From Scenedesmus sp. ARA3 (Eukaryota > Chlorophyta > Chlorophyceae > Sphaeropleales > Scenedesmaceae), in NCBI GenBank assembly GCA_004335835.1, contig RWJK01000985.1, positions 24,988 to 88,987 of the forward strand: a DNA stretch of 64,000 nt, given 5' to 3'. How positions within the stretch are numbered: the stretch's first letter is position 1; the number at the start of each line of letters is the position of its first letter. The notes beneath the pieces are model-generated. The model searched no databases and was not told the DNA's origin. It worked only from the letters and a program-made list of their open reading frames with translations. A program made the position numbers and the translations under genes. Below, piece by piece: positions 1 to 64,000 of this stretch.

Positions 1-788
1 GTACATGCTGGCTGCTTGCAGTGCTGCCCTTGTGCGCAAGTTCAGTTCAGTTCACACTGCTCTGTCAAACTCACCGCCTGCGCCAGCATCCACGACATAC
101 TGACTTGCTCGTACACACTCCGGAACTCTGCCGGTGCTAGGCTGTACGCATTTGGCTCTGGGCTGACCACTGCCGTCACCACTGCGCGGTTGGTGGCGGT
201 GCCGATGCTGCGGTGCTTGCTGTCCCACAGCGGCAGCTCCAGCGTGCGCGCGTCGTTGCTGAGCTCGTGGCCTGCAAACATCCAGAAGGCAACAAACAAC
301 AGGAGTTGTGAATAAAGAATATATAGATGTCATAGAAGACTGCTGGAAGCATAGTGGTTGCTGTCCCACAGCGGCAGCTCCAGCGTGCGCGCATCGTTGC
401 TGAATTCGTGGTCTGCAGACATCCACAAAGCAACAAGTGACAGAGGTTTTGAAAAGATACTACACAGATGTCATAGAAGACCCTTCCCTCCTTCCTTGCA
501 CACTTCCACTCACCGAAGCAGAACATGCGCACGTGCTGCATGCTGCTGCAGATCTGCTGCACCGGCGCTGCCCCCTAAGGATACTGCTGCCTTTCCTCCC
601 GCACTTCCACTCACCAAAGCAGAACATGCGCACGTGCCGCATGCTGCGACGATCTGCTGCACCCGGCGCTATCCCCTAAGCATACTGCTGCCCTTCCTCC
701 CCCACTTCCACTCACCAAAGCAGAACATGCACACGTGCTGCATGCTGCAGCCGACCTGCCGCGCCAGCCGCCATTCACCCCCTATGCC

Positions 789-820
<32 letters not shown>

Positions 821-3800
821 ACCCCGACTCACCGAAGCAGAACATGCGCACGTGCTGCATGCTGCAGCCGACCTGCCGCGCCATGCGCTGCCGCAGCAGC
901 CCCACGTACTCGTTGCTGTGGCTGGCCAGGCGCAGCCGGCTGGCGCCGTCACGCGACACGTCCAGCGCCCAGGGCGTGCCGCGCCAGGCCAGGCGGTGCG
1001 CAGGCACAGGGGGCATCGTGGCCATCTGCATGTACGCAGACAACAGTACACATGGATGGATACACAAAAGAAGCATTTGAACGCTGGATGGCGGCGAGGT
1101 AAAAGCACGCGAAGGAAGCAAGGTTGTATGTAGGGGGGAGGGGCGTCACGGGACACGTCCAGCGCCCAGGGCGTGCCGCGCCAGGCCAGGCGGTGCGCAG
1201 GCACCGGCAGCATTGTGGCCATCTGCATGTAAATCAAGACAATATGCTGTAAAAAACGGATGTTTGGTCATCTACCACACCAGAAAGCAGACGGAAGATG
1301 GCAGGCAAGAGGCAGGGAATGTGTGAGAATCGCAGGTGTGTGGCTGGCCAGGCGAGACCAACTTTGGCAGTATCAGCCAGGCCCTAACAGCCCTCCAGGC
1401 TGTCCACAAATTGCTGGCGCAGCGGCATTTCCACAAGGCAAGGGGTAGGACAGGCAAACATGTGTGATAGGACACCAGCGCACCTCTTTGAAGCCTATGG
1501 CCTCCAGGGCCAGCGTCAGGCAGCGCGACACAGCCCTGCCAGCAGCCTCGATGGCGGCCGGCTCAGGCCCGCGTAGCGCAGCCTCGTGCATTGCTGCCAC
1601 GATGCGCCTGCAGCAGCAGTAGCAGCCACACGCCCGTTGATAAACAGCGCATACACGGAGGTTACAGCAGGAGGACGGCATATCAACAGAGACATGGGCA
1701 CAGCGCCAGCAGCCATGCTGCATTGTCAAATTGATGTTATCATCCAAGAGGTGGCTTGCCATTGGCAATCCACCTGGGGACGCCAATCCCTTTGCATAAC
1801 CAATTGAACGCGCATTGCGCGCCATCAACCTCGAATCCTGGTGCCCAGCCACTGCCATGAGATGCAGAATGAAGCGGACGACCCCAGATTGCTATAATGT
1901 TTACAATGCATAAAAGGCAGCATGATTACCCGGCTGCCTGATCAAGCCAGCCACTCACTCTATAAGCGCCCGCTTGTAGCTGGCGGACTTGACCTGCAGG
2001 CTGCTGCAGTGGTAGAGCCACAGCAGCTGGTTGCGCATGGTGCCAGCGATGCGGTCGTCAGGGTTGCTCAGGTACACGCGCCAGATGAAGTCCAGGCCTG
2101 CGGTAGGGCGAAAATAGGCACAAAATTTAGGGTTGTTTTTGTGGGTTGGTGGGGTTACATGGAAAGCCTGGATCGACTTCGTCATCAGAGGTACGCACAG
2201 TTACACATGTATAAGAACGCATGTACACATCCGCCGAGTCCTCACGGACCGCATTGGATGCGAAACTGCACATTTAAGCAAAGCTGCGGCAGAAGACCTC
2301 TCGTTCCAAGTCTCCTGACCATCTGCGTGGGCTGCAGCTGCATGTGTCCACTCTGTCGTGTCAGAGACATGATATGGCAAGACCCCCAAAAGCTCGCACC
2401 GATGCAGCGTCGCATCACGCAAGCTGCACAAGGCCACAGAACCGCCATGCGAATCTACGCACACTTGTCAAGCCTACATGCACGCGTGCTGTTGTGCGGC
2501 TGGCTGCAAGTGTGGTGTTGTGTATGTTCTCTGCACTCGAAGCAACAAATTGCCAGCATCTCACCCTTGATGTCAGCCAGGCGCTGCGCCTGCACGAAGG
2601 TGCCCTTGGCTTTAGCCTGCGGCAGGCCCAGCGCCTTCGACTCCAGGTTGACCTGCACAATGCAACGCAGCAGTAGCAGCAGCGGCAGCGGCGGCAGCAG
2701 CAGCAGCAGCAGAATGAGATATCAGCAGGATGCATGGCAGGCCCAGCGCATTGGACTCCAGGTTGACCTGCACAGTGGCATGGGCGGCAGCAGCAGCAGC
2801 AGCAGTGGCAGCAGCATTGGATTTCTTTGGATGCAATAGCTGCATTGTCGGCCGGCACAGTGCCTTGGACTCCAGGTTGACCTGCGCAGTGTCATGCGGC
2901 GGCAGCAGCAGCAGCAGTGGCAGCAGCATTAGATTTCTTTGGATGCAATAGCTGCATTGTCGGCAGGACCAGCGCCTTGGACTCCAGGTTGACCTGCGCA
3001 GTGTCATGCGGCGGCAGCAGCAGTAGCAGGCGCAGCAGCATGAGGAAGAGCAGCATGGGACATCAACAGGATGAATGGCTGCATTCTTGGCAGGCCCAGC
3101 GCCTTCGACTCCAGGTTGACCTGCGCAGTACAATGCAGCAGCAGCAGCAGCAGCAGTAGCGGCGGCAGCAGCAGCAGGAGCAGCAGCAGCAGCAGTAGCA
3201 GCAGCATGGGACATCAACAGGATGCAATGGCTGCATTGTCGGCAGGCACAGTCCCTTGAACTCCAGGTTGACCTTCACAGGGTGTGCCAGCATGCGATGG
3301 CTTGCTTGTCAACAAGACAATGATGAGACAGCAGGCAAAAGAACAACAAGAGGCAACAGGGCATTGTCAGCATGTGAAACTTGACTATGTGAACGTCCTC
3401 ACACCTGTTGAAAGACAGTCACAAAGAGCTACGCCGCCAAGTAGCTCTTCAGCTTTGCTGCGTCCACTGATACACCAAGAAATACACCGCTTGACTTGCA
3501 TGGCTGACAAACATCTAAATAGACGGCTCACCTGCTGGAAGATGTCCACAAAGAGCAGCGCAGCTTGGCCGCGCCCACTGACACACCAATAAAACTTCAC
3601 ACTTAGGCCTGCTTAGGGATGAAAGTTACATATGTTCCAACAAAGAAAAGACGCCTCACCTGCTGGAAGATGTCCACGAAGAGGCGCGCCGCCATGTCGC
3701 TCAGCTTGGCCGCGTCCACTGCGACACCACTTGCACTTCAAACTTAAAAAAGGTTACATAACAACCTGCAAAGAAAAGACGCCTCACCTGCTGGAAGATG

Positions 3801-6800
3801 TCCACGAAGAGCCGCGCCGCCATGTAGCTGAGCTTGGCCGCGTCCTGGCGCACCATGTGGCTCTCCAGCAGCGCCGTCTGCGTGGACGGCTCAAAGAGCT
3901 CCGTGGATCCCGGGGCGCCCTGGAAGCCCGCCTTGAAGAACGCCTGCGCACACAGCCGCAGTACAACACACAGTTAGTGATGATGTTCATGGCTTGTTGC
4001 TATGGTTTGCGTCGACGGCTCGAAGAGCTCCGTGGAGCCAGGCGCGCACTGGAAGCCCGCCTTGAAGAACGCCTGCAGGGCAGCGCACACAAGCATAAAC
4101 AAGAGCATAACTTTCGGCTGTTGTGTTCATATACGGCTCAAACAGCTCGGTGAGGCCAGGGGCGCCCTGAGAGCCCGCCTTGAAGAACGCCTGCAAGACC
4201 ATACACGCAGCATAACACACACAACCATGTTAGTGATGATGTTCATGGCTTGTGTAATCTTGTGTGGCCGGCTCAAACAGCTCCGTGGAGCCAGGGGTGC
4301 CCTGAAAGCCCGCCTTGAAGAACGCCTGCAGACGAAAAATAACAACTTACAGCATCACATTTGGATGTTGTCTGATTGAACGGCTCGAAAAGCCCGTGGC
4401 GCCCGGGTGGGCCTGGAAGCCTGCCTGCCTTGACAAACGCCCAGAAACGCCATACAGACGGCACAGATGGTGATATCTACTTTCACAATCTGCGCCGTCT
4501 GTATGGCGTACTATCATTAAAACCAATGTGGGTTCGACAAATGTGGACGGCTTAAACTCCACTTGGCGCTGACGCGCCCCAGACGCGACTGCCCATCTTC
4601 CCAAGACTTCAGCAGACTTCCTCAAATCCTCGCGTACCTGTGTTGCAGGCAGCGCGTCCTCCCTGCATGGCGGGTCCACCATCACAGGTCCCACAGCCGC
4701 TCCGCCTGACCATGATCATGTGTTACTATGATAATATCACATTTGTTGGGATATAACCCAATATAGTCTAGGCGCACCTGTGTTGCGGGCAGCGCGTCCT
4801 GCCTGCAGGGTGGATCCACCACCAGCGTGTCCCACAGCCGCTCAGCCAGCCGGCCATTATAAATAACAACTAAGGCACTATGACGATGATCTTGGTAAGT
4901 ATTTGACAATAAATAACACTCTAGAGAAGAAGTGCATAGATAGACAAAACGCACAAAAGGAAAAACAACATTCAGTGTCGAGTTATCTCCACGCGCACCT
5001 GTGTTGCGGGCAGCGCGTCCTCCCTGCAGGGTGGGTCCACCATCAACGTGTCCCACAGCCGCTCCGCCAGCCGGCCATCAAAGTAGCTGTTGCTGTGCAG
5101 CGACAGGTAGCGCAGCGTCAGCAGGTGCTCCCGCAACACCTCGCTGTAGCTCCAAGCCCCCTGCCGCAAAGACTCCATCGCTGCCAGCTGCAGCGCCTCT
5201 TCATCTGGCTGCTGCTGCGCCGCAGCATTTGCAGGAGCTGCTGCTGCTGCTTCGCGTGCTGCTGCGAGTGCTGCTCGGGCCTGGTCAACGCTGCTGCAGA
5301 GCCGTTTGACCAGCACTGCGCTGAGGCTGTGCTGCTGGTCCAGGTCATCGACTGCGCGCTGCATGGTGGGCAGCTTGCGGCCCTTCAGCTTCAGCGCCTG
5401 CAGATATGAACACAGAAAAAAGTTGCCAACAGTGTAAGTAGGACTTCAGTTTTGGTATGCTGGAGGGGAATGGTGCGCTTTGCAAAACGGGGTGCTAGAG
5501 AGCGTCGGGCTGCATATGGCTGCAGCATGTGCTCGCAGCAAGTCAACTTTTGCAGTGCAGCAAGGCATGTCAAGTCACGCATGCCCCAGTCAGGGCACAG
5601 CTGCTGCACATCTTCGCTGCCCTGGACTCAATCTCTAAACACGGCAGATACGCGTCAGTGCGGTCCTGCTTGGCATAACACACCTGTTCATCAGGCAGCC
5701 ACCGCAGCAGCTCCCGAATGCTGCGCAGCAGCGGCACCTGCCCGCCAGCCCCCTCCAGCAGCTGCTTGGCGCACTTGTTGATCATTTCCACCACATAGTC
5801 CAGGCCGTCACCAAACTGGGTGTTTGTTGCGCCGGGCAGGCAGGAGCAGCATGCAAACATGTCAGTTGACAGCAGCTGCTTGGCGCACTTGTTCATCATT
5901 TCCACCATATATTTCAAACCGTCACCAAACTGGGTGTATGTTAGGCGGGGCAGGCAGGAGCAGCGTAACAGACATGTCAGTCGACAGCAGCTGCTTGGCG
6001 CACTTGTTGATCATTTCCGCCACATAGTCAAGCCCTCGCCAACCTGGGGGAACGTTACGCAGGGCAGGCGGGGCCAGTGGGCAGTGCAACAAACACAGCG
6101 TCACTGTTGCTGTTGCATCATAAACCAGCTCTGTTGTTGTCATCGGTGTCATCAACAGTACATCACACTCATTGGTGCTCTCGCTGCTGTTATGATATCC
6201 TCACCTCCAGGTGAACCTTGTAGGCCTTGATCACGTCTGCCAGCGCCCACCTACCCTCACCTGACCACCCACCATATTCGTATCACTCTTGCTATGGTAA
6301 CAAGATGGTAGCAGCAAAACCAAAACTGTTACATACATCTTAAGCTCACCTCCAAGTGACCCTTGTAGGCCTTGACCATGTTTGCCAGCGCGCCCACGCC
6401 CACCACACGCCCTCACCTCCAGCGCTGTGCTATTGTTATGGTTACTGCTACCGTCGGAGTTGCTATTATATTCCTCACCTCCAAGTGGCCCTTGTAGGCC
6501 TTGACCACATTCGCCAGTGCGCCCACGCCCACCACGTCCGGGTGCACGCCATCACCCATCGTGAGGTCCCACACCATGTCGCCAATCTTCTCACACATGT
6601 GCACCTCCTTATCGCTGGCTGCCAGGTGCTGCAGCAGCCCCAGCAGCCGCTGCGTGTCCTGCGTGCTGCGCTGCCGCGCGGCCTGCAGCTTGGCGAAGAG
6701 CATGTCCAGCTGGTTCCGCGAGAAGCGGGACGCGATCTCGGCCAGCAGGTCAAACATGTGTTGCTTGACCGCCTCGTACGTGTCCTCCTGCAAGCACAGA

Positions 6801-9800
6801 GATGCGAGGATGAAGGCAGAGCATGACGGCTCACGTTGACTTTACGACAGCAGGTCAAACATGTGCGCCTTGACCGCCTGATAGGTGTCCTCCTACAGGA
6901 ATGTCACGTTTAAAAAGGTTCAGAAAGAGGTCAGCAGCTGTTTGGGCGCGAAGCATGACGGGATGTCACTAGCACGTCATATATGTGCATCTTGGCCGCC
7001 TCATAGGTTTTCCTCTGCAAGGTGATATAGGCACAAGTTCAGGTACTAGCAATCAAGGCCATACTGGGTGCAGTGCCACTGAAGCCACTTGACTTTTTGG
7101 GCTGGTTGTGCGCTGGTGGTTATCAACGAAATAAAAGAGCTGACAAGTGCTCGGGCAACAAGCCCGCCGCCTCACCTTCTCCGTCACCGCCCACAGCATG
7201 TCCAGGTGCTCCGGCGCCAGGGACTGGTTGGTTGTCAGCGTGACCATGATGCCTTGCACCTGTGCAGCAGCGTGCAGCAGCAGCAGCGTGCAGCAGCAGC
7301 AGTGTGCAACAGCATGCAGCATTGCATAGGAGCCTGGTGCCTGCAACAGTCCATGTCCGCCGTTGCAGCTGCACCAGCCTGCCGGCTGCCCTGCGCAGCA
7401 ACCATCAGGTAATGCACCACCTGGCCCACACCAGCAGCTGTGCTTGGCTGCCTGACCTCATACGGCAGCACATATTGCTGATAAGCACACTGCGCTAAAT
7501 CTGCACTGTGCTAGCCTGCGGAACCACAGTACTGCCTACATCGCACCCCTGCCAAGCCAAGAGAGCAGCAGCAGCAGCCGCAGCAACACTGGGGCAATCG
7601 TATCCCACAACAGCCTTGCATCATAGCACAAGTGCTGAATGTGAATGCCGACTGCTGTCACGGCTGCTGGACTTGGCACTGCTGCTTGCAGCGCTCTGAG
7701 ATATGCCTACTATGCCACTGCTTTCACGGTTGCTGTGCTCTGCTGCTTGTGCCCCGCTAATGCATGCCTACTACGCTACTGCTGTTGCGGCTGCTGTGCT
7801 CTGCTGCTTGCAGGGCAGCCACACACGCACCTCCTGCATGTACTGGCGCTGGTGCAGGTTGGTGCGCAGGATGCGCTGCACAATGCCCCGGTCAGCCATC
7901 CAGCCCACCAGCAGCTGCAGCAGCAGGCAGCAGCAGGCAGCAGCACAGCACACATATGATGCACACACGATGGGTGCATGCACAACCAAGTGCGCAGAAT
8001 GCGCTGCACAATGCCCTGATCAGCCATCCAGCCCAGCAGCATCTGCAGCAGCAGGCAGCAGCACAGCACACATTTCGTACATACACGTTGGGTGCTCGTA
8101 CATACACGTTGGGTGCATGCACAACTGAGTATCCAGGATGCGCTGCACAATGCCCTGATCAGCCATCCAGCCCACCAGCAGCTGCAGCAGCAGGCAGCGG
8201 CAGGCAGCAGCACAGCACGCTTTTGATATAGACACGATGGGTGCATGCACAATCAAGTGCGCAGGATGTGCTGCACAATGCCCTGATCAGCCATCCAGCC
8301 CACCAGCATCTGCAGCAGCAGGTGGCAGCACAGCAGAACACATAATGAACGCTCCCAGGATGAGTGCATGTGCAATGATGTACCTACAATGCGCTGCACG
8401 ATGCCCAAGCTGGAAGATGCCCAAGATGGCCTCCTCCAATCCACCAGCACTTGAATGCAACACAAGAGGTATATGCTACAACAGGATGACACAATGAGTG
8501 CATACGCATGGAGTGGCCGATCCCAAGCATAAGCCGCCAAGGCCTCCTGTGGCTGCTCCTGCATGCGGCTTCTCTCTGACACTAGGCTGCTGTCAAATGC
8601 TCTGTCACCAGCCACTCCAGTCTGCACAGACAGCAAGCATGCTTGCTGAATCGAGGCCATCCGACGCCAACCATGCACTGCTGCAGGTGTGCATGCTACG
8701 CTGCTGCTGCTGCTGTTTCACCCCATTCAGCTGCTGCCGCACCTCAAGAGTGGGCTCACACTGGCGGCTGCCGCTGTCCGCCGCATTTCGCAGCATGCGG
8801 TTGCACTCGCGCACGCCGCTGAGCAGCTTGTTGAAGCTGCTGGACTCCAGCATCTTGCATACGAATGCACACTGCACCTGCGCCAGCTGCACAGACAAAC
8901 AGAACAGCAGCAGCAGCAGTGGAAGTGAGACAACAGCAGTTCGTTGAAGATGCTGACTCCAGCACCTTGCACACAAACACGCACTGCACCTGCGCCAGCT
9001 GCAGGTCACATCGGCAGCACCAGCAATTGTTGGTCCAGCTGCAGCAGCAAGGCAGTGCTAGCAAGACGACTGGCAGCGTGGCAGCCTCTAGCTGTAACTG
9101 CGTCCTGCAGGATGCCAAGACCAGATGGGCAGCACTGCACAAGGGCGCCCCACCTGATAACATACCACTGCACAAACAGCTGCCATACCCTCCCAATAGT
9201 ACCGCCTGCGTGGCATCTGTAGCTTGTAACTGTGTCCTGCAGGATGCCCCAAGACCAGATGTACAGTGCCAGTGCACATGCACATGCCACCTGGCAACAT
9301 ACCACTGCTAATTTATTCGCCATACTTACACACCACCACCACCACCACCACTAAGGCACTCAAACTCTTGATTAAGTCACACCTAAACCACATTAAAAAC
9401 ACACTCACCTGCAGCAGCATCGCCTGCGGGTCTGGCCCATGCGCGATGATACGGGGCAGGTTGGTGTTGGCCAAGCACTGGAAGATGCTGTATGTCCTGT
9501 CGCTGCCATGATCACTCAGGCGCTCGCTGCCGCCCTGCACCAGCTGCGACACGTGCTGCATCACTGGCACCACAATCTGCATGCAGCAAAAGAGCAGTAC
9601 AGGTGAAATCTTGTGCAGGAAGATATGAGTAGTGCAGCAAGGATCGCACTGCGGCTAGCCAAGTGATTATGTGGCGCACAGGGCTGGCCCGTGGTTGCTG
9701 CGTTTGGCAGTTGCCGCTACTGTGGCTGGTTGCAGGAAACTCGAATTGCTGCAGCGGCAAGTGCTAGTGCTGCACCTGCTGCTGCTGCTGCTGCTACTGC

Positions 9801-11645
9801 TGCGACGCAGTGGCATGCCGTGCAGACCTATGCCATTGCTGTGTGACAGACGCCAGCTGCTGCCAGCATGTCCAGCTGCTGGGATTGCTGATGCTATAGG
9901 TGTTAGCGTCCCAGCTGCTGACATTTTCCTATCATTATCATTGGCCAGTTACTGCTGCTGCGGCACTTGCATAGCTGCTGACCTCGTTGAACTTCTCATG
10001 CGCTGCATCTGTGGCGACATCCACGACCTGCACAACGCATGCAGGCACAACACACAAGCGTCAATCGGCAGCTGCTAATAATCTCTAAGCAGTGATCAGC
10101 GGTGTCTGGCACGTGAGTGAGCCTGGGACAACAGAACCAGACACTCCTGCAAGGCAACAACTGCTGCTTGCAGGCACTTTTTGCGAGCACGCGAGCCACA
10201 GCTTTGGGAGCACACCAGCCACAGCTGCTGCCGGTGGTGGTGCTGCTGCTGCTCTGCAGGCATGTCTGCACACCCTGCCTTGCTGCTGCACTGCTGAACA
10301 GCGCCGCACGCACCTGCGCCAGCACAGCTGTCATCATGTTGAGCAGCGCAAAGCCGACCTGGTCTGGCTCCTGCAGCAGCTGCAGCACAGATACAACGCA
10401 GGTGCAGCAGCACAAACCACACACAGTAGGGGTTGAGGTGATTAAGAACCATCTATTCATGTGTTTGAACGTTCTGCAGAGTTGTGTGCGGATGCCAGCA
10501 TGCAGCTGGCAAGAACAGCGGCGCAATCATCAAGTTTGAGCAGGTCAACGTCATCACTGGCCCTTCGCCACTACACAGCATGCCGCACTGGCACAGCACA
10601 ACTGCTATGCTGCAGTCGGCACAACACTGTTCAACATAGACACCTCAGAGTTGTTGCTGGCTCTGGTCTTGCAGGAAGCTCCTACTGGTATCGCCGCTGC
10701 TGCTGGTCAAGCGCGCCACAGCTTGGCGCACTTTCCAGCTGTCAACCAACCCAACTGCTCCAACTGCTTGCTGTCCTGCAAGCCCGAGTATGCAAACCAA
10801 CACACCTGCAGGATGTTTTCGAAGCCGTGCAGGTAGCCAAACAGGTTGACCAGGTGCACCAGCCAGCGGTTGCGCTCCACAGCTGGCTCCAACTGCTCTT
10901 CATCCTCCTCCACTGCTGCTGGGTCGTCGTTGTCTGCATGCAACGAGAACTGCCGCTGCGCCCACGCATCTGGCACGCTATCTGCATACTCAAACAGCTT
11001 GGAGGACGCTGGCACCTCCTCATCTGCCAGCTGCAGCATCAGCTTCTTGTTCATGTTGAAGAGGTTGAGCATGCACTGCGCAACAGGCACCAGGTCGCTG
11101 TCAAGCTCTGCTGTGGCATCGCCAGGGGCCAGGCAGGCCCTGTAGCTGAGTGCGTGTGCTGCAGTAGCCACCAGCAGCTGCAACGTTTGCAGCAGCACCT
11201 CCTCCTGGTCCTGATGTGGCAGCATGCTGCTCTGGGGGTAGCTGAGCAGCTTGTCCACACTCAGGAACAGATCATCCCGGAACAGACGCCTGACGCAGTC
11301 CAGGTCCGTCTGGCGCATCCTGCAAGGTGTCAAACGTTGTGTAATAGCAGCTGGGAGTGCTATGGCAGGGCTGAATCAGCTGCATGCCACGTACCTGCTT
11401 GAAGGGGACCCCCAGCGGAGCATGCCACATGCAGTGCGTAGGCACTGGCCAAGAGCGTAGATGCCATGGCTGCTGGTTCGTAAGTTTGTGATTTGCGACA
11501 TGAGCATGAGATACTCGTCGCTGGGGTAGAGTTTGCCCTGCTGCTCAGCATCCATAGCATCCTCGCCCTGCTCCAAAATCTCAGAGCTGGCCTGCCCTGC
11601 ATCATCATCAGAGACGCTGTTGCTGACTGCAAGTTCCTCCTCCAT
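1..11645 (-). CDS. USP9X-like: USP9X/faf-type ubiquitin C-terminal hydrolase, 5' portion (3' end beyond window)
   Basis: Multi-exon gene read right to left. The order of exons follows animal USP9X/fat facets. The first visible exon (11395-11645, MEEELAVSN...) joins in phase to 10806-11319, which holds CVRRLFRDDL and LVHLVNLFGYLHGFENIL. Later exons include about 9412-9570, 8705-8890 (FVCKMLESSSFNKLL), about 7830-7920 (GIVQRILRTNLHQRQYMQE), about 7170-7255 (LAPEHLDMLW), about 6477-6789 (HMFDLLAEIASRFSRNQLD), about 5690-5815, about 5000-5399, about 3788-3943, about 2560-2652, about 1955-2097 (LDFIWRVYLSNPDDRIAG), about 1486-1617, about 842-1020 and about 80-272 (ubiquitin-like region). These are the long armadillo-like and UBL parts; the Cys/His protease domain should lie left of base 1. 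Family role: removing ubiquitin from substrate proteins. Many introns hold tandem copies of exon edges. The start Met at 11645 is the best visible one, but an earlier exon cannot be excluded. A few small exons near 9990-10740 remain unsolved. Confidence 0.88.
500..850 (-). repeat. Donor-side exon-end array, 4 copies (USP gene)
   Basis: Four copies of an exon end encoding about MQHVRMFCFG, each followed by GTGAGT, lie near 840, 735, 625 and 525. The copy near 840 is continuous with the full exon; the others sit in the downstream intron. The phase-1 end joins the next exon (HELSNDARTLELPLWDSK), whose own start is copied once near 360-420. Confidence 0.8.
2560..3300 (-). repeat. Acceptor-side exon-start array, 6 copies (USP gene)
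   Basis: Six exon starts encoding about VNLESKALGLP, each preceded by an AG acceptor and usually a CTG-rich tract on the sense strand, begin at 2652, 2767, 2881, 2993, 3120 and 3272. Spacing is 115, 114, 112, 127 and 152 bp. Only the 2652 copy runs on into a full exon (KAKGTFVQAQRLADIKG). Confidence 0.85.
3480..5060 (-). repeat. Exon-edge duplication cluster (USP gene)
   Basis: Two neighbouring exons have multiplied edges. Copies of an exon start encoding about FFKAGFQGAPGSTELFEP occur near 3935, 4060, 4180, 4310 and 4420. Copies of an exon end encoding about VDPPCREDALPATQV occur near 5020, 4810 and 4650. Copies of the exon end LFVDIFQQ occur near 3790, 3660 and 3540. Sequence identity is high but imperfect, with some copies frameshifted. 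Confidence 0.78.
5690..6050 (-). repeat. Acceptor-side exon-start array, 3 copies (USP gene)
   Basis: Three copies of a segment encoding about DYVVEMINKCAKQLL occur with the shared core at 5765, 5879 and 5994 (spacing 114 and 115 bp). The lowest-coordinate copy continues into the full exon that ends RELLRWLPDEQ. Confidence 0.8.
6200..7020 (-). repeat. Exon-edge copies on both sides of the HMFDLLAEIASRF exon (USP gene)
   Basis: The intact exon is about 6477-6789. Its start (about TYEAVKQHMFD) is copied near 6850-6895 and 6970-7018 on the upstream side. Its end (about VKAYKGHLE plus GTGAG donor) is copied near 6345-6395 and 6205-6245 on the downstream side. One exon therefore shows both polarities. 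Confidence 0.8.
7830..8450 (-). repeat. Acceptor-side exon-start array, 4-5 copies (USP gene)
   Basis: Copies of a segment encoding about LVGWMADQGIVQRILRT recur with the shared core at about 7891, 8020, 8159 and 8286 (spacing 127-139 bp). A more diverged copy lies near 8390-8440. Only the lowest-coordinate copy continues into NLHQRQYMQE. Each copy is preceded by CTG-rich sequence on the sense strand. Confidence 0.8.
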
Positions 11646-37875: not shown

Positions 37876-37917
<42 letters not shown>

Positions 37918-39056: not shown

Positions 39057-39091
<35 letters not shown>

Positions 39092-44508: not shown

Positions 44509-44539
<31 letters not shown>

Positions 44540-45443: not shown

Positions 45444-45489
<46 letters not shown>

Positions 45490-47265
45490 AGGCTCTGAGG
45501 GCAGCATGGGCTTGGATGACATGGATGCCAGCGAGGATGATGATGACGAAGATGAAGATGAGGATGAGGGTGCGTGGCTGGCATTTGACCATGCTTGATG
45601 TGTACTGCTGACTTTGGGTGATGATGATGTTGATGATGCTGATTATATATACTGCTGGCTTGTATGAGGAGGTGAGGGTGAGGATGAGGCTGAGGGTGCG
45701 TGGCTGGAGTTTGACCATGCTTGATGTGTACTGCTGACTTTGGATGATGGTGATGATGGATACTGCTTACTATGTATGAGGGTGAGGGTGTGTGGTTGAT
45801 GGGGCCTGACTGATGGTGGTCCAGCTCAGGGCCATCAGCGATTGAGAGACCTGCTTATTCTTCTGTGTTTGAAGGTTCTGGCCGTTCTGGCCCTGGCTTG
45901 GGGGTTTGCCCCTTCTGGTCAGGAACCACCTGAGGTGGTTTGGGAGTGGCTGCCTTTCTGGGCCCCCTCTTGCTAGCAAAACGTGTAATTGATTGATTGA
46001 TTGACTGATGGGGCGCTGCTCTGCATGTTGTGTGTCTGCCTGCTGCCACCTGCTGCTGCACTTGACATGCTGCTGCTGTTGTTGTGCGTCAACTTGCAGA
46101 CGATGATGATTCAGAGCAGCAGCTGGGCAGTGAGGACGAGGCAGCAGGCAGCAGCGATGATGATGATGATGCCAGCGAAGGAGAAACAGATGACAGCGAA
46201 AGCGATGACGAGGCTGCTGCTGCTGCTGCTGCAAACGGCGTTGCAGCGCCCGCTGCTGCTGCTGCTGACTGGGGGGAGCTGCAGCTGCAGGATGCAGCAG
46301 ATGCTAGCGGCGCAGCAGCAGCAGCAAACGGCGGCGCGGAGCTCAGCCGGGGAGAGAAGAAGCGCCTCAAAGCAGCAAAGGAGGCGGAGTTGAGAGCAGC
46401 AGAGCGGGCGAGGCTTGCAGGAGACGCTGCTCCGGAGAGTGCTGCGGGCTATGAGCAGCAGCTGCTGTCGGAGCCCAACAGCAGCTTCCTGTGGGTCAAG
46501 TACATGGCCTTCCAGCTCAAGCTGGGTGCGTCTGACCAAGAGCCTGACCGGATTTGACCATGTTTGACCGAGTTTGACCATGTTTGACTGACGACAGCTG
46601 TCAGTATACAAGGCGTTGACTGTGCGGTACCTGCCTTTCATCGCTTGCTTTACCCAACAACTGTTTCTACAACTCCTCATAGCTTTCGACCTGGATTCAG
46701 CGTCGAGTTTCGTCCCTCATGGGCTACATCAAAGTTGTGTTTGATGTCCTGCTGTCTTCCTGCAGGCGAGATCGATGCTGCGCGGCAGGTGGCTGAGCGC
46801 GCGCTGAAAACCATCGCGATGACATCTGAGCGCGACAAGTTCAACGTGTGGGTGGCGCTGATGAATTTGGAGAACGCGTATGGAGGGGCGAATGCTGAGG
46901 ACGCGCTGATGGCCGTGTTCAAGCGGTGAGTGCTGTGGGTTGCTTATCTGGTGTGTGCTGTGGGTTCAGAGCGTGTGTGGTGGTACCTTTGTGTGGTGTT
47001 GCGCACTGCAGACGCAGGGATGTGCAGGTGCGGGGTTGCTGGGGTGCGGTTGTGTGGGTGGCGCTGATGAACCTGGAAAATGCATATGGAGGGGCAGGCG
47101 CAGAGACGCGCTGATGGCGGTGTTCAAACGGTGAGTGCTGCAAGTGCATGCAATGACAGAAGCCGTCGTCCTTCAGCTAAGGATTCTGAACAGGCTGAAA
47201 GATTTGAAGTTATGGCAGTGCATTTGTTGATGATGCCGTACATTCCCGAGTGCTGACAAGTTTGA

Positions 47266-47360
<95 letters not shown>

Positions 47361-49860
47361 AGTGCTGTGGGCTACTGTGAGCACAAGCCGCTGTACCTGG
47401 CACTGCTCGGGATCCTGGAGCGCAGCGGCAGGCACGTGCTGGCTGGCGAGGTGTGGCGCACTGCCACCAAGAAGTTCAACACCAGCTGCAAGGTGAGCAG
47501 TGGGTCAAGACAGGGTGCTTGGCCGTTTGGATGCCTGTTGAACTGCATCTTAGTGATGGAAACGTCAAGCCTGGCAGGCGAGGTGTGGCGCACTGCCACC
47601 AAAAAGTTCAACACGAGCTGCAAGGTGCGGCCTTTTGTGGTGCCAGCAGAGGGGTAACTGCACGGGCTGGCGACACAGCGACAGCTGAGTAACTTTTGTG
47701 TGTGAGCGTTTGAGGGCGTTTGGTCACATGGTGACAGAGGGACCGCATTTTGAGTGTGTGGAAGTGGTTTGAGTGTATGGAGGCGAGCGGCACCAGCTGG
47801 CAAGGTGTGGCGCACTGCCACCAAGAAGTTCAACACCAGCTGCAAGGTAAGCGGAACAAACAGTGGATCGGCCTTCTTGGATGCTTCTTAGCAACTGAAG
47901 ATTGAGCTTGGCAGCTGAGGTGGGTTTCGCAGCGGCCAATAAGTTTCAACGCGAGTTGCAAGGTAAGCAGAACAAACAGAGGATTTGGGTGCTTCTTGGT
48001 ACTTGGGGTTTGAAGCCTGGCAGGCGAGGTGTGGCGCACTGCCACCAAGAAGTTCAACACCAGCTGCAAGGTGAGCGGAACAAACAATGGGTCGGCCTTC
48101 TTGGATGCTTCTTAGTAACTGGAAGATGGAGCCTGGCAGCCGAGGTGGTTTTCACAGTGGCCAAGAAGTTCAACGCCAGTTGCAAGGTGCGCACTGGCAG
48201 TGTGAATGCTTGAGGGTGTGTGGTCACTTGTTGACAAATGGATATCTGGCAGGCGCTTGCTGCTTTAATGCAAGTGCTATCGCTGACACGGCAATGTGCC
48301 GGCTGTTGCTGCTGTTGCTGCTGCTGCTGCGCGATGTGGCGTGCAGGTGTGGCTGGGTGCATACGAGTCAGCACTGCAGGCAGCAGCCAGGGCAGCAGCA
48401 GAGGATGCAGCACAGCCAGGTCGCACAGCAGCAGCAGCAGCAGACGGCGGCGCTGCCGCGCGGCAGGTTTTGGAGCGGGCGCTGAAGTCACTTCCGAAGC
48501 GCAAGCATGTCAAGGCGCTGCTGCGGTGAGATACTGATACTGGTCTGTCTGAGTGGATCGTCATCATTAACATCATGTTTACCGATCAAGCCGTAGCTTA
48601 ATTTATATGGGAGGGTGTGCCAGGTGTAACCTGCATGCGGTGTATATTATACAAATTGGTATAAATTACAAGTTACGGTGTGCTGCATCAATCATAAGGA
48701 TCATTATAGGTGGATCATCATTCTGTCTGAGTGGATGTCCAAGGTTGTGATGGCCTGCCTGCCCCTGCTGCTGAAGTGCTGCGCTGGCTGAGTTCAGCAG
48801 CGGCTGTGCTGACCCTGCTGCTGTGCTCCCCGTGCTGCTGCTGCTGCTGCTGCTGCTGCAGTGCCGCGCTGGCTGAGTTCCGTGGCGGCTGTGCTGAGCG
48901 GGGCCGCAGCGTCCTTGAAGGACTGCTTGCCAACTACCCCAAGCGCACCGACATCTGGAACGTGTACATCGACCAGGTGGGGCCCTGAGTTGTTTGCAGA
49001 GTTTTTTTGACTTTAATCGTTGCACAAAGAGTGTTTGTTATCAGCAGCATCCTTGAGGGGTTGCCTGCCAACTACGTAGGTATACCCCAAGCGCACCGAC
49101 ATCTGGAACGTGTACATCGACCAGGTAGGTGCCTCAGTTTAAACCCCTTTATTTCATTCACACTCAACATCCAGCCAGCTCCTCACCAATATTTCACATT
49201 GAACATGTGCGGGCCCTGGGCGCTGCTGTTGCGCGCCACCAGCCTGGGCCTGCCCCGTAAGAAGCTGCATGCTCAAATATCACAGTTTTGGAAGTTACAA
49301 GAGTAACCTCGCCCGTTGGGGAGGCAATGACAGGCTCATAGGGCAGAGGAAAAAGCAACCTTGACCGGTTCTATCACCTCAATGGTTTTGCAATGCCAAT
49401 TTGCAAGAAGTGAAGAACGGCGATGCCCCGCGCACGCGGGCGCTGCTGGCCCGCGCCACCAGCCTGGGCCTGCCGCCAACTTAATAACGCCCTGAAACCA
49501 TTGGCTTTTTGTGCTGCTTGCAGGAATGGAAGAACGGCGATACCCCGCGCACGTGGGCGCTGCTGTCGCGCGCCACCAGCCTGGGCCTGCCGCCTCAGAA
49601 ACCGCACGCTCCAATCACTTATCACCTTGTCACTTGTTATTTTCCATGCGAATCTGCAGGAGGTGAAGGGAGGTGATGCCCCGCGCACGCGGGCGCTGCT
49701 GGCCCGCGCCACCAGCCTGGGCCTGCCCCCAAAGAAGATGAAGGTGCTGTTCCGGCGCTGGCTGGAGTTTGAGCAGCAGCACGGCAGCAGCGCTGACGTG
49801 GCGGCGGTGAAGCAGCGTGCAGTAGAGTACATGGCGAGCCAGGCGCTGCGCAACAACTGA
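29633..49860 (+). CDS. RRP5: rRNA biogenesis protein RRP5 (S1 repeats plus C-terminal HAT/TPR repeats)
   Basis: 28 exons, all GT-AG and in frame, total 6,726 nt or 2,241 aa: 29633-29839, 30333-30410, 31123-31230, 31559-31757, 32030-32241, 32583-32840, 33275-33378, 34243-34618, 34874-35341, 35784-36015, 36291-36671, 37101-37350, 37920-38082, 38300-38387, 38755-39245, 39446-39607, 40339-40557, 41631-42395, 42767-43081, 43671-43932, 45190-45288, 45492-45569, 46100-46525, 46766-46925, 47363-47492, 48347-48525, 48862-48976, 49660-49860. The N-terminus has the family signature [18 protein letters not shown] long series of S1 RNA-binding repeats follows (for example [20 protein letters not shown] and [20 protein letters not shown]). 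Then comes an acidic Asp/Glu linker and HAT repeats ([50 protein letters not shown]). RRP5 acts in the nucleolus in pre-rRNA cleavage for both subunits. It exceeds human PDCD11 in length through Ala/Gln/Ser insertions. Confidence 0.95.
31922..32110 (+). repeat. Acceptor-side copy of RRP5 exon 5 start
   Basis: The exon-5 start at 32030 ([17 protein letters not shown]) is preceded by a copy at 31928 ([16 protein letters not shown]) with its own CTGCAG acceptor. Confidence 0.75.
33520..34330 (+). repeat. RRP5 arrays around the exon 7-8 intron
   Basis: The exon-7 end ([13 protein letters not shown] region) is copied at 33520-33573 with a GTGCAA donor. The exon-8 start ([20 protein letters not shown]) occurs at 33728, 33852, 34048 and 34243. 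The third copy has lost its acceptor AG (GCAC instead of GCAG). Only 34243 opens into the full 376-nt exon. Confidence 0.88.
39960..40557 (+). repeat. Acceptor-side array of RRP5 exon 17 start, 3 copies
   Basis: Segments encoding about [19 protein letters not shown] begin near 39972, 40101 and 40339, each after a GCAG acceptor. The last copy is the intact exon. Confidence 0.82.
40440..41025 (+). repeat. Donor-side array of RRP5 exon 17 end, 3 copies
   Basis: Units encoding about [20 protein letters not shown] end in CAG before GTGAG at 40557, 40789 and 41025 (spacing 232 and 236 bp). The intervening intron sequence is copied as well, with high identity, which implies recent duplication. Confidence 0.88.
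41149..41760 (+). repeat. Acceptor-side array of RRP5 exon 18 start, 5 copies
   Basis: Exon starts encoding about [20 protein letters not shown] begin at 41149, 41292, 41384, 41539 and 41631. Spacing alternates (143, 92, 155, 92 bp), showing a compound unit of about 247 bp that was itself duplicated. The short copies at 41292 and 41539 diverge after [10 protein letters not shown]. Confidence 0.88.
43183..43760 (+). repeat. RRP5 exon 19 end and exon 20 start copies
   Basis: The exon-19 end (ELTTGK plus donor) is copied at 43183-43227. The exon-20 start ([20 protein letters not shown]) occurs at 43347, 43500 and 43671, each after a CAG acceptor; only the last leads into the complete S1 domain. 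Confidence 0.85.
43825..44541 (+). repeat. Donor-side array of RRP5 exon 20 end, 4 copies
   Basis: Units encoding about [20 protein letters not shown] plus an acidic and Gln tail end before GTGAG at 43932, 44127, 44330 and 44541 (spacing 195, 203 and 211 bp). The first copy is attached to the intact exon. Confidence 0.88.
44661..45240 (+). repeat. Acceptor-side array of RRP5 exon 21 start, 6 copies
   Basis: Exon starts encoding about [15 protein letters not shown] begin at 44661, 44769, 44870, 44972, 45085 and 45190 (spacing 108, 101, 102, 113 and 105 bp). Each is preceded by CTG repeats and an AG. Only the last copy continues into the rest of the exon ([15 protein letters not shown]). Confidence 0.9.
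45560..45750 (+). repeat. Donor-side copy of RRP5 exon 22 end
   Basis: About 60 bp covering the acidic exon end, the GTGCGT donor and the following intron are repeated at 45672-45745 with near identity. Confidence 0.78.
46551..46588 (+). repeat. TTTGACC tandem motif in RRP5 intron
   Basis: Four TTTGACC/TTTGACT units alternate with CATG or GAG spacers right after exon 23. It matches the motif at 22890-22932 in an unrelated gene. Confidence 0.7.
47268..47362 (+). repeat. Long CTG microsatellite abutting a 3' splice site
   Basis: About 31 uninterrupted CTG units end directly in the CTGCAG acceptor of RRP5 exon 25. It serves as the whole pyrimidine-rich tract of that splice site. Confidence 0.9.
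47435..48186 (+). repeat. Donor-side array of RRP5 exon 25 end, 6 copies
   Basis: Units encoding about [17 protein letters not shown] end before a GT donor at 47492, 47623, 47846, 47962, 48070 and 48186 (spacing 131, 223, 116, 108 and 116 bp). Donors vary (GTGAGC, GTGCGG, GTAAGC, GTGCGC). The fourth and sixth copies have decayed protein sequence but keep the donor. Confidence 0.9.
49060..49740 (+). repeat. RRP5 exon 27 end copy and exon 28 start array
   Basis: The exon-27 end ([13 protein letters not shown]) is repeated at 49088-49123 with a GTAGGT donor. The exon-28 start ([19 protein letters not shown]) recurs near 49218, 49410, 49525 and 49660. One copy near 49405 has a mutated acceptor (CAA). 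Only 49660 leads to the stop codon. Confidence 0.87.
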
Positions 49861-59075: not shown

Positions 59076-59672
59076 TCAGTCCTCCTCGTCCACAGGCAGC
59101 GACACAAACTGCATGACGCCCAGCCTGGATGAATCAAGGGCGGCCTGCAGCACAGCAGCAAGCAACAAAACATGAGATGCGCACAACCGGCAAGTGCAAC
59201 CAGAAGAAGAACAAAAATAGTAAGCAATACTGTTAGTAACAGTTACAACACACCAGTGTGGCTGCAAAGCCGCTGAGGGCCGAAGGCTGCAGTGAGGCCT
59301 GCTGGCCTGTGCGGCAAGAGAAGAAAACAAGGGCTACGAAACAACATATTGTAACATGTTATAACACGCACCATAACGGCTATAACACACCTGTGTGGCG
59401 GCAAAGCCGCTGAGGGCCGAAGGCTGCAGTGAGGCCTGCTGGCCTGTGGCACGGCAACAGAAGAAACAAATGCTAAGAAAAGTCAAATTGTGACATGTTG
59501 TAACACGTGGCATAACAGTTATAACACACCTGTGTGGCTGCAAAGCCGCTGAGGGCTGAGGGCTGCATTGAAGCCTGCTGCTGGCCTGTGGCGCTGCCGC
59601 CCCCTGGGCCCCTGCCGCCAGCCAGTGGCACCATGTGCGTCACTTTGAGCAAGCCATTGGCATCAATGCTGA

Positions 59673-59724
<52 letters not shown>

Positions 59725-59794
59725 AGCAGCAGCAGCAGCAGCGGCGGCGGCATTGGGTGCGTCACCTTGACAATGCCATTAGCATCGATGCTGA

Positions 59795-59836
<42 letters not shown>

Positions 59837-62800
59837 TGGCACAATGCGCGTCACCTTGAGAAGGCCATTAGCATCAATGCTGACCTGGCAGCAGCAGCAG
59901 CAGCAGTGGTGGCACAATGCGCGCCACCTTGAGCACACCATTGGCATCAATGCTGATCTGACGAGCAGCAGCAGCAGCAGCAGCAGATGTGGTACCAGCA
60001 GCAGGGGAAGCAGCAGCAATAAGCATGTTTAATGCTCATGTGCATCAGATGGTTGTCATCATGTTATCTGTTACTGTTATTGTTATTGTTATTCGTAACA
60101 GCGCACCTTGGTTGACACCGGCCCTCCCACCTCTTTGCCATCTGGGATGTGGCACATGGACGCCTTCAGGTTCTTGTAGCGGTACCGCTGCTGCACCTGC
60201 GGCTCCGCCACTTGGAAACCCGACAGGTCAGCAGCGCTCAGGTGCACCTGCGGCAAAGAAGGGGAAGGTTCGAGGGGAAGAGAGGAGGATCAGCATGAAC
60301 AGCAGCAGGCACGTAAACCAGAGAGTAGTTTGCAGAAGCGCGGCACATCAAGAGGTTTGCAGCCTTCAGGTTCTTGCTGCTGCTGCTGCTGCTGGCGTGA
60401 ACACATACGATCACACACACCTCGAGTGAGCCTGTGCCTGCTGCTGCCGTGCTGACAGACAGGCACGTCACGCCTCAGCCGCCTTGCCACGAATGTGCAA
60501 GGAGATATGCTGGCACAAGCCGACTCAAGCCGTACGCCACCACCCCACAATCACTCAGCAGCAGCAGTGGCGCGTGTGTGTCGACATACCTCGAGCGAGC
60601 CTGTGCCTGCTGCTGCCATGCTGAGCGCGGGCGGGTCGCGGCTGAGCCGTATGGCCACGCTGCCGCCCGGCCACTCCAGATCGTCCACTGCCTCTTTGAG
60701 CAACGCGCCTGCAGGCAATTGCAGACGGAGCAACAGAAGCCATGAACAGGACAGCCAGCCAGCCAGCAAGTCTTTGAACCAGCCATGAGGTTAGTACCCA
60801 CCCTGCGTGCACAGCAACATGTGCACTCTGCACAACACGGTGAGGGCATGGCTCAAACTGATTGCCACGCCGCCGCCCGGCCACTCCAGATCGCCCATTG
60901 CCTCTTTCAACAGCGCGCCTGCAGCCATGACGCCAAGGTGCAAAAAGAGTGACAAGCAGGACAACCAGCCAGCCACCCAGGCTTCTCTAGATCGTCCACT
61001 GCCTCTTTGAGCAACGCTCCTGCAGGCAAATGCAGACGGTAGAGATGGCAACCGTGCAGTACATGATGACAGCACACACAGCTGCTGCATCGTCCACAAA
61101 TGATAGGTGTTCACTTACCAAAATATTTGAAAATGGCTTAGTAAATACCACATGCATATACCACATGCATATCTGCGCTAATCATGATTATTATCAGTCA
61201 TAATAAGAATTTGGCTGCTCACCCTTGAGCAGGAAGTGCGGGCTCCCGCCGGTATCTAGTCATGTCAGAAGGTAAGTCACAGTAACAGACGACAGCACGG
61301 CACCCAGAGCAGCATCTGTGCAGCCACAACATGGGTGCCTACAATGAAGCAATGTAATGTATGCAATCGGCAACTTTCTTTATATGAAGCACATATTCAA
61401 CAGTAAAAAAACACGCACCTTTGAGCAAAAAGTAGGAGGCAGGCTCCCGCCAGTAGTCAGTCATGTCTGAAGGCAGGTCCTGCTCCTGCGTGGCAATGCG
61501 CGCATACATCACGCAGCCCGCGCCACCACCGTCCACGTCGACGGCATCACCACTGTCAGACAGCCTGTGGCATCGCAAGTGGCAGAGGACATTGGATCGT
61601 CAGGCCTGCTTTTGCAACTGTTTTTGCGCCGCCCGCGCCGCTCCCGTCCACGTCGACAGCATCACCACTGTCACACAGCCTGTAGCGCCGCAGGGCAGCA
61701 ATCAAAATAGGAGCAATGGCAGAGCGTCAGGCCTGTTCTTGCAATTGTCTTCACGCCCGCACCACCACTGTCCACGTCGACAGCATCACCTGCGTCACAC
61801 AGCCTGTGGCATAGCAAGCAGCAGAGGACGGCAGAGTGTCAGGCCTGTTATTGCAGCTGTCAATACGCCAGCTGCGCCACCACCGTCCACATCGACAGCA
61901 TCACCGGTGTCACTCAGCCTGTTACATAGCAAAGCAGCAAAGGCAGAGCATCAGGCCTGTGTTGCAGATGTCGTCACGCAGCTTGCACCACCCCCGTCCT
62001 CATCCACAGGATTACCACTGTCAGACAGCCTGTACCACAGCACAGCAGCCATAACAATGCGTCAGGCCTGTTCTTGCGGCTGTTGTCACGCAGCACGCGC
62101 CACCGCCGTCCACGTCCACAGCATCACCACTGTCGCACAGCCTATAGCATAGCAAGGCAGCGGCGGACACGGGAGCGACAGTAGAGCGTCAGGCCTGCTC
62201 TTGCAGCTGTCAGTCCCAGGATACTGTGGTGCCAGGGGTGCAGGGTTCTGTTGCTGCTGGTGCTGCACCCTGCTACTACAAAACCCTACACCTGCGCTGG
62301 GCACCTCCTGTATAGGGGTGTTAGACGTGTCTTGCTGGCGGAGGCATTGCCTTGTGTCCCCTGCAGCCAGGTTCGCCTGACTGCTGTGTGTGACTAGCCA
62401 GTAGGACTTCGTCCCCCCTGGTAACATTAAAAAACCTACACCCGGCAGCCTATTTCCCCCACTCACTCTAGTTGCAGCTCCAAGTCAGGCCCCGGGTAGT
62501 GCAGCTGCAGTGGCGCAGGTTGTAAGTGCTGCTCGTGCTGAACCCTGCTACTACAAACCGTAAGCCATGCAGCCTGACCCCACTCGGTGTCTGGGGCGCC
62601 ACTTCTAGCCATGTGAGTACGCATTATGTTGCATTGTGCTTGCAATGTGTGACCTGCAACTCTTTCAACTCACTCCAGTTGCAGCTCCCCGTCAGGCCCT
62701 GGGTAGTGCAGCTGTAACGACGCAGGGTTCAAGTGCTGCTCGTGCTGAACCCTGCTACTACAAACCATAAACCCTGCAGCCTAATCCCCTGCACTCACTC

Positions 62801-63946
62801 AAGTTGCAGCTCGCCATCTGGCCCCGGGTAATGCAGCTGCAGCGGCGCGGCACTGCTGGCAGAGGCAAACACAGCCAGTGCGTCCACCAGCTGCAGCATG
62901 GCCACACAACCCGCAGCACCTTGAAACCCTGAACCCTGCAGCAACCTGAAACCCTGAACCCTGCAGCAACCTGAAACCCTGGACCCTGCAGCTTTGCCTC
63001 TCACTGCCGTTGCAACACGGCCTCGCCAAACCCATAATCCTGCAACTAAAACGCCCCTGCCTCACTCACTCTAGTTGCAGCTTCCCATCAGGCCCCGGGT
63101 AGTGCAGCTGCAGCGGCGCGGCGCTGCTGGCGGAGGCAAACACAGCCAGTGCGTCCACCAGCTGCAGCATGGCCACACAAATTTGCAGCACCTTGAAACC
63201 CTGAACCCTGCAGCAACCTGAAACCCACACCGCACAGCCCCTTGTTCACTGCCGTTGCAACACGGCCACGCCAAAAAACCTAATCCTGCAGCCTATTCCC
63301 CCCACTCACTCTAGTTGCAGCTCCCCATCAGGCCCTGGGTAGTGCAGTTGTAACGGCGCGGCGCTGCTGGCCGAGGCAAACACAGCCAGTGCGTCCACCA
63401 GCTGCAGCATGGCCACACCAAACACGCGCCTGGGGGGGCCGCACTCGTAGCTGCTGAACAGCTGCAGGCAGTGCAAAAGCAGTGCAAAAGAAGTGAAAAA
63501 CAAGTAAAATAAGAAGGCAGACTGTTGATGTGTGTCTGAGTGTACAGGGCATTGTGATGTCAGGGGGGAGTCAGTGTGCAGTGATGCATGAAGGCGCGGT
63601 GGCTGCACAAAACAATTCAAACACGGCCAGTGCGTCCACCAGCTGCAGCATGGCCACGCCAAATACGCGCCTCGGGGGCCCCCAACTCATAGCTGCTGAA
63701 CAGCTGTGGCGGCAGTGAACAGGCGGCAGTGCAAAGGCGGATTGCAGCAGGAGGCGATCGACGTGCATATGTTGACGGAGTCAAGGACACATGCAAGCAC
63801 ATCGAATGCAGCTAGCGCATGTATCCAAGCAACACAAACACAACGGGCCGTACCTCGCTGCGCAGCTGCAGCGATGAGCGCAGGCTCTTGGAGTCATCCG
63901 CCCAGTGCAGCTCCACCCCCTCAGGGGCCAGCACCACCGTGCACGC
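59076..63946 (-). CDS. RAD1: RAD1 homologue, 9-1-1 checkpoint clamp subunit (N-terminus beyond right edge)
   Basis: Seven exons, in transcript order: 63854-63946, 63310-63461, 61419-61564, 60590-60708, 60107-60247, 59530-59673, 59076-59144. They total 864 nt, 287 aa plus stop, with all phases matching (0, 2, 1, 0, 0, 0). Recognisable RAD1 blocks are TVVLAPEGVELHWADDSKSL, RRVFGVAMLQLVDALAVF, GCVMYARIATQEQDLPSDM, LKEAVDDLEWPGGSVAIRLS, QVQQRYRYKNLKASM, VSIDANGLLKVTHMV and the acidic end LPVDEED. RAD1 forms a PCNA-like ring with RAD9 and HUS1 in the nucleus that signals DNA damage. Only about 20-30 N-terminal residues should be missing. Every intron contains copied exon edges. Confidence 0.93.
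59245..59975 (-). repeat. RAD1 arrays around the penultimate exon
   Basis: The exon start (VSIDANGLLKVT) occurs at about 59965, 59890, 59797 and 59673, each after an AG acceptor and, in most, a CTG run. The exon end (QASLQPSALSGFAATQ plus GTGTG) recurs at 59530, 59395 and 59250. The intact exon lies between the two arrays. Confidence 0.88.
60420..61030 (-). repeat. RAD1 arrays around the LLKEAVDDLEWPGG exon
   Basis: The exon start (GALLKEAVDDLEWPGG) is copied near 60880-60930 and 60985-61025. The exon end (AAAGTGSLE plus donor) is copied near 60420-60450. The intact exon is 60590-60708. Confidence 0.82.
61200..62150 (-). repeat. RAD1 acceptor-side array, 6 copies, plus donor-side copy
   Basis: Exon starts encoding about LSDSGDAVDVDGGGAG recur with the shared edge at 61561, 61676, 61800, 61915, 62026 and 62138 (spacing 115, 124, 115, 111 and 112 bp). 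Only the first leads into the complete exon. A copy of that exon's end (REPASYFLLKG) lies near 61215-61265. Confidence 0.9.
62460..63705 (-). repeat. RAD1 exon-edge array around the FGVAMLQLVDALAVF exon
   Basis: The intact exon is 63310-63461. Downstream copies of its end (LQLHYPGPDGELQLE plus GTGAG) occur near 63075, 62805, 62690 and 62465; two of them also include the LQLVDALAVF part. One upstream copy of its start lies near 63615-63705 and is frameshifted. Confidence 0.88.
62920..62995. repeat. 26-bp minisatellite
   Basis: Three tandem units with the core AAACCCTGAACCCTGCAGC occur in a RAD1 intron; a further partial copy is at about 63192-63225. Confidence 0.75.
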
Positions 63947-63948
63947 CT

Positions 63949-63949
<1 letters not shown>

Positions 63950-64000
<51 letters not shown>
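63950..64000 (+). repeat. CAG microsatellite at the window end
   Basis: About 17 CAG units (CTG on the RAD1 sense strand) end in the CTGCAG acceptor of the first visible RAD1 exon. The tract runs off the window. Confidence 0.9.

Follow-up and report, generated by a model that had tools for sequence, protein, structure and literature searches.

Why do introns of several genes in one stretch of a green algal genome contain, beside the exon ends that are spliced, further diverged copies of those ends together with their splice sites? The question arises from 64,000 nucleotides (nt) of Scenedesmus sp. ARA3 (contig RWJK01000985.1, positions 24,988 to 88,987), hereafter the window, which is one 64-kb stretch of one contig in an assembly of 87.3 Mb and 1,567 contigs. 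An earlier reading of this DNA from its letters alone, the original prediction, took the copies as the product of an active process that multiplies splice sites. Following the copies through 42 introns and 84 exon edges of three genes (RRP5, RAD1, and a USP9X-like gene), we find that they are numerous and specific to exon edges, and we favor, with a probability of about 0.6, an origin by tandem duplication together with unequal recombination anchored on the conserved edges.

For each edge the query consisted of 12 nt of intron and at most 130 nt of exon, with triplet repeats masked and N treated as a wildcard; it was aligned to the intron that the edge borders, from which the true junction had been hidden. 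This search returned 73 extra exon-edge copies. The junction is crossed by 69 of them, with an exonic part of 17 to 118 nt, and is not crossed, for example, by one of the four acceptor-edge copies in RRP5 intron 17 or by one donor-edge and one acceptor-edge copy in RRP5 intron 20. Junction-crossing copies occur at 36/84 edges and in 27/42 introns (RRP5, 17/27; RAD1, 6/6; USP9X-like, 4/9), and an affected edge has one to five extra copies, hence the two to six in total that had been predicted. The controls are close to empty, with matches for 1 of 840 edge queries in unrelated introns, 0 of 84 on the antisense strand, and 0 of 20 interior exon windows. Against this background the multiplied exon edges are real, although their predicted presence at nearly every intron was an overstatement.

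The exon models behind these counts come from spliced alignment of window DNA to proteins of relatives. The 28 exons of RRP5 and the seven of RAD1 described in the original prediction are borne out, as models that omit the extra copies agree with the Tetradesmus obliquus proteins P0001 and P0113, and in RRP5 all introns are GT-AG and the reading frame is kept relative to P0001. Amino acid identity to these proteins is 98.2% (RRP5, P0001) and 99.3% (RAD1, P0113), and the alga is therefore T. obliquus or a very near relative. A 45-nt alignment gap in RRP5 exon 23 was merged into one exon; the first RAD1 exon is cut by the window end, and its part aligned to a CTG run was dropped. For the USP9X-like gene, exons beyond the reference P0109, a transcriptome-derived protein judging by its name, were left out, and a spurious last exon at 649-675 was removed. 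The acceptor consensus is CTGCTGCTCCTGCAG. The window has many triplet runs of GCA/CAG, and a perfect (TGC)31 run at 47268-47360 stands directly 5′ of RRP5 exon 25 (start 47363). Long N runs, which may be gaps, lie nearby on the same contig, outside the window (L003:1-6567, L020:1-3951).

The repeats in the three genes are tied to exon edges. Among 83 local repeat pairs, which are not independent of each other and of which intron-only pairs fade sooner, all but two involve an exon or a copy, and none is wholly exonic. These comparisons leave out triplet-rich self-match pairs (top three trinucleotides at least 45%, or at least 40% in cross-stretch comparisons), pairs at least 1,500 nt apart, and triplet-masked edges. 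In all nine introns that hold both kinds, the donor copies all precede the first acceptor copy, so that the partial copies form no acceptor-donor pseudo-exon. Copies of one edge also share their exonic breakpoint beyond chance, with a deviation of 11.3 nt compared with 15.4 nt after shuffling (20 edges; 15 of 2,000 shuffles as low).

Copy number is closely tied to intron length, which follows 295 + 127 × copies (in nt) with r = 0.90 across the 42 introns, in line with the intron growth that had been predicted. Introns without copies average 338 nt (n = 15, median 286), and those with copies 615 nt (n = 27); by regression, copies account for 9,284 of 21,674 intron bases in the three genes (43%). 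A published comparison (PMC5966456) gives mean intron lengths of 462 nt for T. obliquus, 230 for Raphidocelis, 302 for Monoraphidium, and 284 for Chromochloris. Given the 338-nt average of copy-free introns against the published 462, copying of edges could be the reason why Tetradesmus has longer introns, and it would offer a countable route to longer introns without transposons.

The pattern extends beyond the window, which is a dense spot. About 23% of window bases lie in local direct repeats, with a share of 44 to 61% at 1-10, 40-50, and 60-64 kb, 17% at 30-40 kb, and 4 to 8% at 10-30 and 50-60 kb; the feature had been drawn too widely when it was assigned to positions 1 to 64,000, as several regions hold few local repeats. 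The same method applied to 21 other stretches of this genome (165,497 bases), chosen by contig number at fixed coordinates and not randomly, places 5.0% of bases in local repeats, with at least one pair in 14 of the 21. These counts exclude one stretch on the window's own contig (L002), two that are mostly N (L003, L020), and three inside the window (L001, L026, L027). Repeat pairs whose two copies both end at a splice motif number 20/57 in the other stretches, as against 10% with shifted ends, and 42/104 in the window, as against 12%. With noisy ab initio gene predictions for the other stretches, 34/61 repeat pairs span a predicted junction, compared with 38% when shifted. A mobile spacer was also considered and rejected: two spacers searched in the 87.3 Mb, by a method that skips very common words, had one match each, to themselves.

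How the copies have evolved was calibrated on 21 copies with homologous intron flanks, which diverge by 16% over 2,241 nt. Rates from these flanks predict 65.9 nonsynonymous changes, and 55 are seen; nonsynonymous change in the copies is about neutral. Coding constraint had been suggested by a nonsynonymous-to-synonymous (N/S) ratio of 0.31, a between-copy ratio of 0.45, and a third-position bias, and was set aside once flank-calibrated rates came out near neutral. There are 37 frameshift indels, spread over 19 of the 69 junction-crossing copies. With near-neutral decay and frameshifts in this many copies, they look like skipped debris rather than alternative exons.

The splice motifs fit the same picture. 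GT or AG is intact at the junction in 64/69 copies, not significantly more than the 59.9 expected under neutral decay (P = 0.094). In splice-matrix scores, copies fall below their own true sites by 1.7 bits at donors and 3.4 bits at acceptors, and yet 20/30 donor and 30/39 acceptor copies (50/69 in all) exceed the 10th percentile of true sites. The prediction that every copy keeps a plausible site thus holds as far as the dinucleotides go, in nearly all copies, and is weakened by the lower scores. Its further suggestion, that splice sites are multiplied or kept as such, finds no support: retention fits neutral decay, the copies are roughly neutral, and aligned orthologous proteins have each exon edge once. 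An alternative or mutually exclusive exon would carry two splice sites, an open frame, and coding constraint; the copies have one edge each. That copies serve as alternative or mutually exclusive exon ends in some transcripts is hence very unlikely, despite the retained GT/AG dinucleotides, the good scores of many copies, and third codon positions that differ most (N/S 0.31), in view of the single edge per copy, the frameshifts together with near-neutral nonsynonymous change, and their absence from the aligned orthologs. Spliced alignments use the outermost sites: copies of a donor edge follow the true donor, and copies of an acceptor edge precede the true acceptor. Since 50 of 69 copies score well and are nevertheless skipped in the models, choice of the outermost site needs more than the local motif; exon definition probably lies behind the skipping, and these well-scoring skipped copies make splice-site choice testable.

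Several copies carry traces of exchange. In RRP5 intron 25, the copy at 47909-47970 combines the exonic variants of copy 48133 with the flank of copies 47796 and 48017, and a second chimera lies on the donor side of RAD1 intron 2. Residue 76 of RAD1 (61419-61564, minus strand) is Ser in the window and in T. obliquus P0113 and Cys in P0114, P0123, and P0124; among the five acceptor copies of exon 3, three keep Cys76 and two have Ser76 like the exon, intermixed, and one RRP5 copy retains Pro1315. Older copies are, in this sense, fossils of earlier exon states. Copies of different ages thus stand on one edge, which upholds the predicted active process to the extent that it acted at more than one time. 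Where the exon differs from an ortholog, copies match the exon, the ortholog, or neither in 41, 6, and 14 cases for RAD1 (against P0114), 37, 5, and 10 for USP9X-like (P0109), and 287, 6, and 38 for RRP5 (P0002). Copies are closer to their own exon than orthologs are, as in concerted evolution, a result equally expected if the copies are simply young. Taken together, swapped flanks, chimeras, and mixed old and new residues indicate that exon and copies have exchanged sequence repeatedly.

In the reading that we favor, a local tandem duplication reaching from an exon into its intron would place a second exon edge and splice site inside the intron. As long as the outermost edge is still spliced, the protein would be unchanged and the event could survive, and duplications inside exons would be purged. 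With the conserved edge and its copies as short stretches of homology, unequal crossing over or gene conversion would then add copies of about 127 nt each, delete them, swap their flanks, or refresh them from the exon. Intron flanks would diverge freely, so that in time only the exon edge and splice motif remain recognizable. Exon definition would let the spliceosome ignore the copies, a partial exon having only one of the two splice sites. Two arrays that grow from their own edges would also account for donor copies preceding acceptor copies in all nine introns.

A number of observations weigh against this reading. The same 21 copies show 71 synonymous changes where 26.6 are predicted for the copy lineage; we assign the excess to the exon lineage, and an excess at synonymous CpG sites is not fully explained. 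Both chimeras were spotted by eye, among the edges inspected. Intron flanks are at background level in 31/69 copies whose exonic parts are 77 to 100% identical, and a simulation in which the flank is copied along predicts 7%; the weak-homology Z of these 31 flanks averages 0.9, compared with 0.25 in controls. The innermost copy often has no matching flank, whereas plain tandem duplication would leave one. Recombination would account for this loss only on the condition that the flanks were far older than the edges.

Other routes to the same arrays have to be set against these data. One is copying anchored on the splice site itself, in which an exon end up to and including its splice motif is inserted in a nearby intron, possibly through an RNA or R-loop intermediate ending at the splice site, and arrays then form by ordinary recombination; we regard this as a tentative and rather unlikely alternative. 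We consider unlikely the broader proposal that splicing signals set rearrangement boundaries, with DNA- or RNA-derived exon-end copies inserted repeatedly and driving intron growth in Scenedesmaceae. Plain tandem duplication with purifying selection and no recombination, where edges appear only because duplications within exons are lethal and those confined to introns fade sooner, would by arithmetic let some 60% of tolerated duplications cross an edge (127-nt units, 295-nt introns) and fits the roughly neutral decay of copies. It would, however, leave about 40% of pairs within introns, where 2/83 are seen (the pairs being interdependent and intron-only ones quicker to fade), the loss of flanks far exceeds the simulated 7%, and chimeric and mixed-age copies require exchange or repeated events; this simpler account is accordingly quite unlikely.

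An assembly fault, in which the sequence would be a chain of haplotypes or strains whose exons are similar and whose introns do not align, draws on the N runs of the contig outside the window and on flanks that are often unrelated while edges match. A search with RAD1 protein bears on it, returning 17 matches, including short metagenome proteins that read through introns, and 11 of the 17 were examined for internal repeats by aligning prefix to suffix, with shuffles as control. A RAD1 exon start is repeated in four of these 11 relatives, all on metagenome contigs: the exon 3 start occurs twice in P0123 and P0124, the start of the window's first exon twice in P0126, and the exon 4 start twice in P0128, with scores of 128 to 145 compared with at most 45 in shuffles. 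The units within each protein resemble each other, including at residues that differ from the window's. P0127, whose contig is as long as that of P0128, has the exon 4 start once, after the same spacer as between the two of P0128, and its best own repeat (79 versus 39) lies elsewhere; P0114, P0115, P0116, P0118, P0122, and P0129 have no internal repeat more than one point above shuffles. As the metagenome proteins come from a search for open reading frames, no frequency can be derived, but the protein sequences suggest that relatives share the habit of edge copying. The assembly fault that the original prediction named as its refutation is thereby made unlikely. Haplotype mixing by the assembler would fit unrelated flanks but not the near-neutral nonsynonymous changes and the frameshifts, which are unlike functional alleles, nor the metagenome proteins; with up to five copies per edge in addition, an artefact of assembly is most improbable.

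Other parts of the window hold further features. What looks like a separate gene for the catalytic chain of ferredoxin-thioredoxin reductase lies at 13335-13954 (minus strand), with matches to the plant proteins P0111 (13772-13954) and P0112 (13335-13436). In a Cys-rich open reading frame at 19603-20541 (minus strand) one segment (TQG.RAACCTSGQPSYQG...) is repeated, and the local arrays found here, at 19438-19818 and 20004-20524, are possibly more edge copies; neither this frame nor the zinc-knuckle open reading frame has a match in a Pfam search. Tandem repeats of 72 to 87 nt at 24702-24973 fall in a long open frame at 23720-25333 (plus strand) that likewise has no Pfam match, and they translate as Gln-rich repeats; these, unlike the edge copies, may be translated.

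Table 1. Gene models and exon-edge copies in the window, with positions counted from its first nucleotide.
Feature	Position	Strand	Description
RRP5/PDCD11 gene	29633..49857	+	28 exons, 27 introns; spliced alignment to T. obliquus P0001; Pfam S1_RRP5 in P0001
RRP5 exon 8, 5′ edge (true edge 34243)	33845..34136	+	two long copies, 87-90 nt; third short copy at 33721-33749
RRP5 intron 16	39680..40211	+	two donor-edge copies of exon 16, then two acceptor-edge copies of exon 17
RRP5 intron 17	40688..41557	+	donor edge of exon 17 in two copies (105 nt), followed by the acceptor edge of exon 18 in four (≤110 nt)
RRP5 intron 19	43190..43576	+	one donor-edge copy, two acceptor-edge copies
RRP5 intron 20	44024..45130	+	donor edge of exon 20 in three copies, acceptor edge of exon 21 in five
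RRP5 intron 25	47571..48197	+	five donor-edge copies of exon 25
RRP5 intron 27	49044..49600	+	one donor-edge copy, three acceptor-edge copies (one not crossing the junction)
RAD1 checkpoint gene	59079..63924	-	7 exons, 6 introns; spliced alignment to P0113; Pfam Rad1 in P0113
RAD1 intron 1	63618..63717	-	acceptor edge of exon 2 in one copy
RAD1 intron 2, donor side	62456..63181	-	four donor-edge copies of exon 2
RAD1 intron 2, acceptor side	61627..62153	-	acceptor edge of exon 3 in five copies at a spacing of 111-124 nt
RAD1 introns 3-6, edge copies	61220-61278, 60861-60927, 60972-61029, 60415-60491, 59789-59886, 59909-59960, 59242-59311, 59381-59450	-	
USP9X-like gene	5684..11645	-	10 exons covered by P0109, 9 introns; Pfam PF25010 UBP24/USP9X ARM repeat in P0109
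USP9X-like introns 5, 6, 8, 9	8935-9003; 7990-8054, 8134-8193, 8257-8321; 6848-6897, 6935-7021; 5870-5941, 5985-6048, 6195-6250, 6345-6406	-	ten copies

Among known systems, introner elements are dispersed repetitive families that add splice sites and intron mass. The exon-edge copies are likewise repetitive and add both, but unlike dispersed introners they match in unrelated introns in only one of 840 queries, and both searched spacers match only themselves. In plants, repair of adjacent nicks produces short tandem duplications, between tens and hundreds of bases in length; such events could plausibly provide the founding step proposed here, although they are not known to be tied to exon edges. 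Among the matches listed in open-licence PMC full texts, a collection with subscription papers mostly outside it, there is no description of exon-edge arrays inside introns, and the main text of the S. obliquus AS-6-11 genome paper (PMC7590803) has no mention of introns, exons, tandem, or duplication. Closer parallels come from intron gain. In Cryptococcus CNN00420, repeat expansion creates introns (PMC2395259), and whole introns multiply in a repetitive gene, whereas here partial exons multiply in the introns of three unrelated genes. Fission yeast has cases with several 24-nt repeats around new introns (PMC3629103). In the Rogers model, as described for potato RdRp, a tandem duplication with splice sites leaves the peptide unchanged; the same paper also mentions, with little detail, a further duplication of 83 bp that lies in an intron (PMC4974935). 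The exon-edge copies resemble the Rogers model in tandem duplication with splice sites and in duplicated exon sequence that ends up inside an intron. In that model, however, the donor of one copy and the acceptor of the next delimit a new intron, whereas here the outermost sites are used and donor copies come first in nine introns of nine. As the original prediction held, the arrays exceed a one-copy model of tandem duplication: single edges are present in one to five diverged extra copies at 36 of 84 edges, and it is existing introns that are lengthened.
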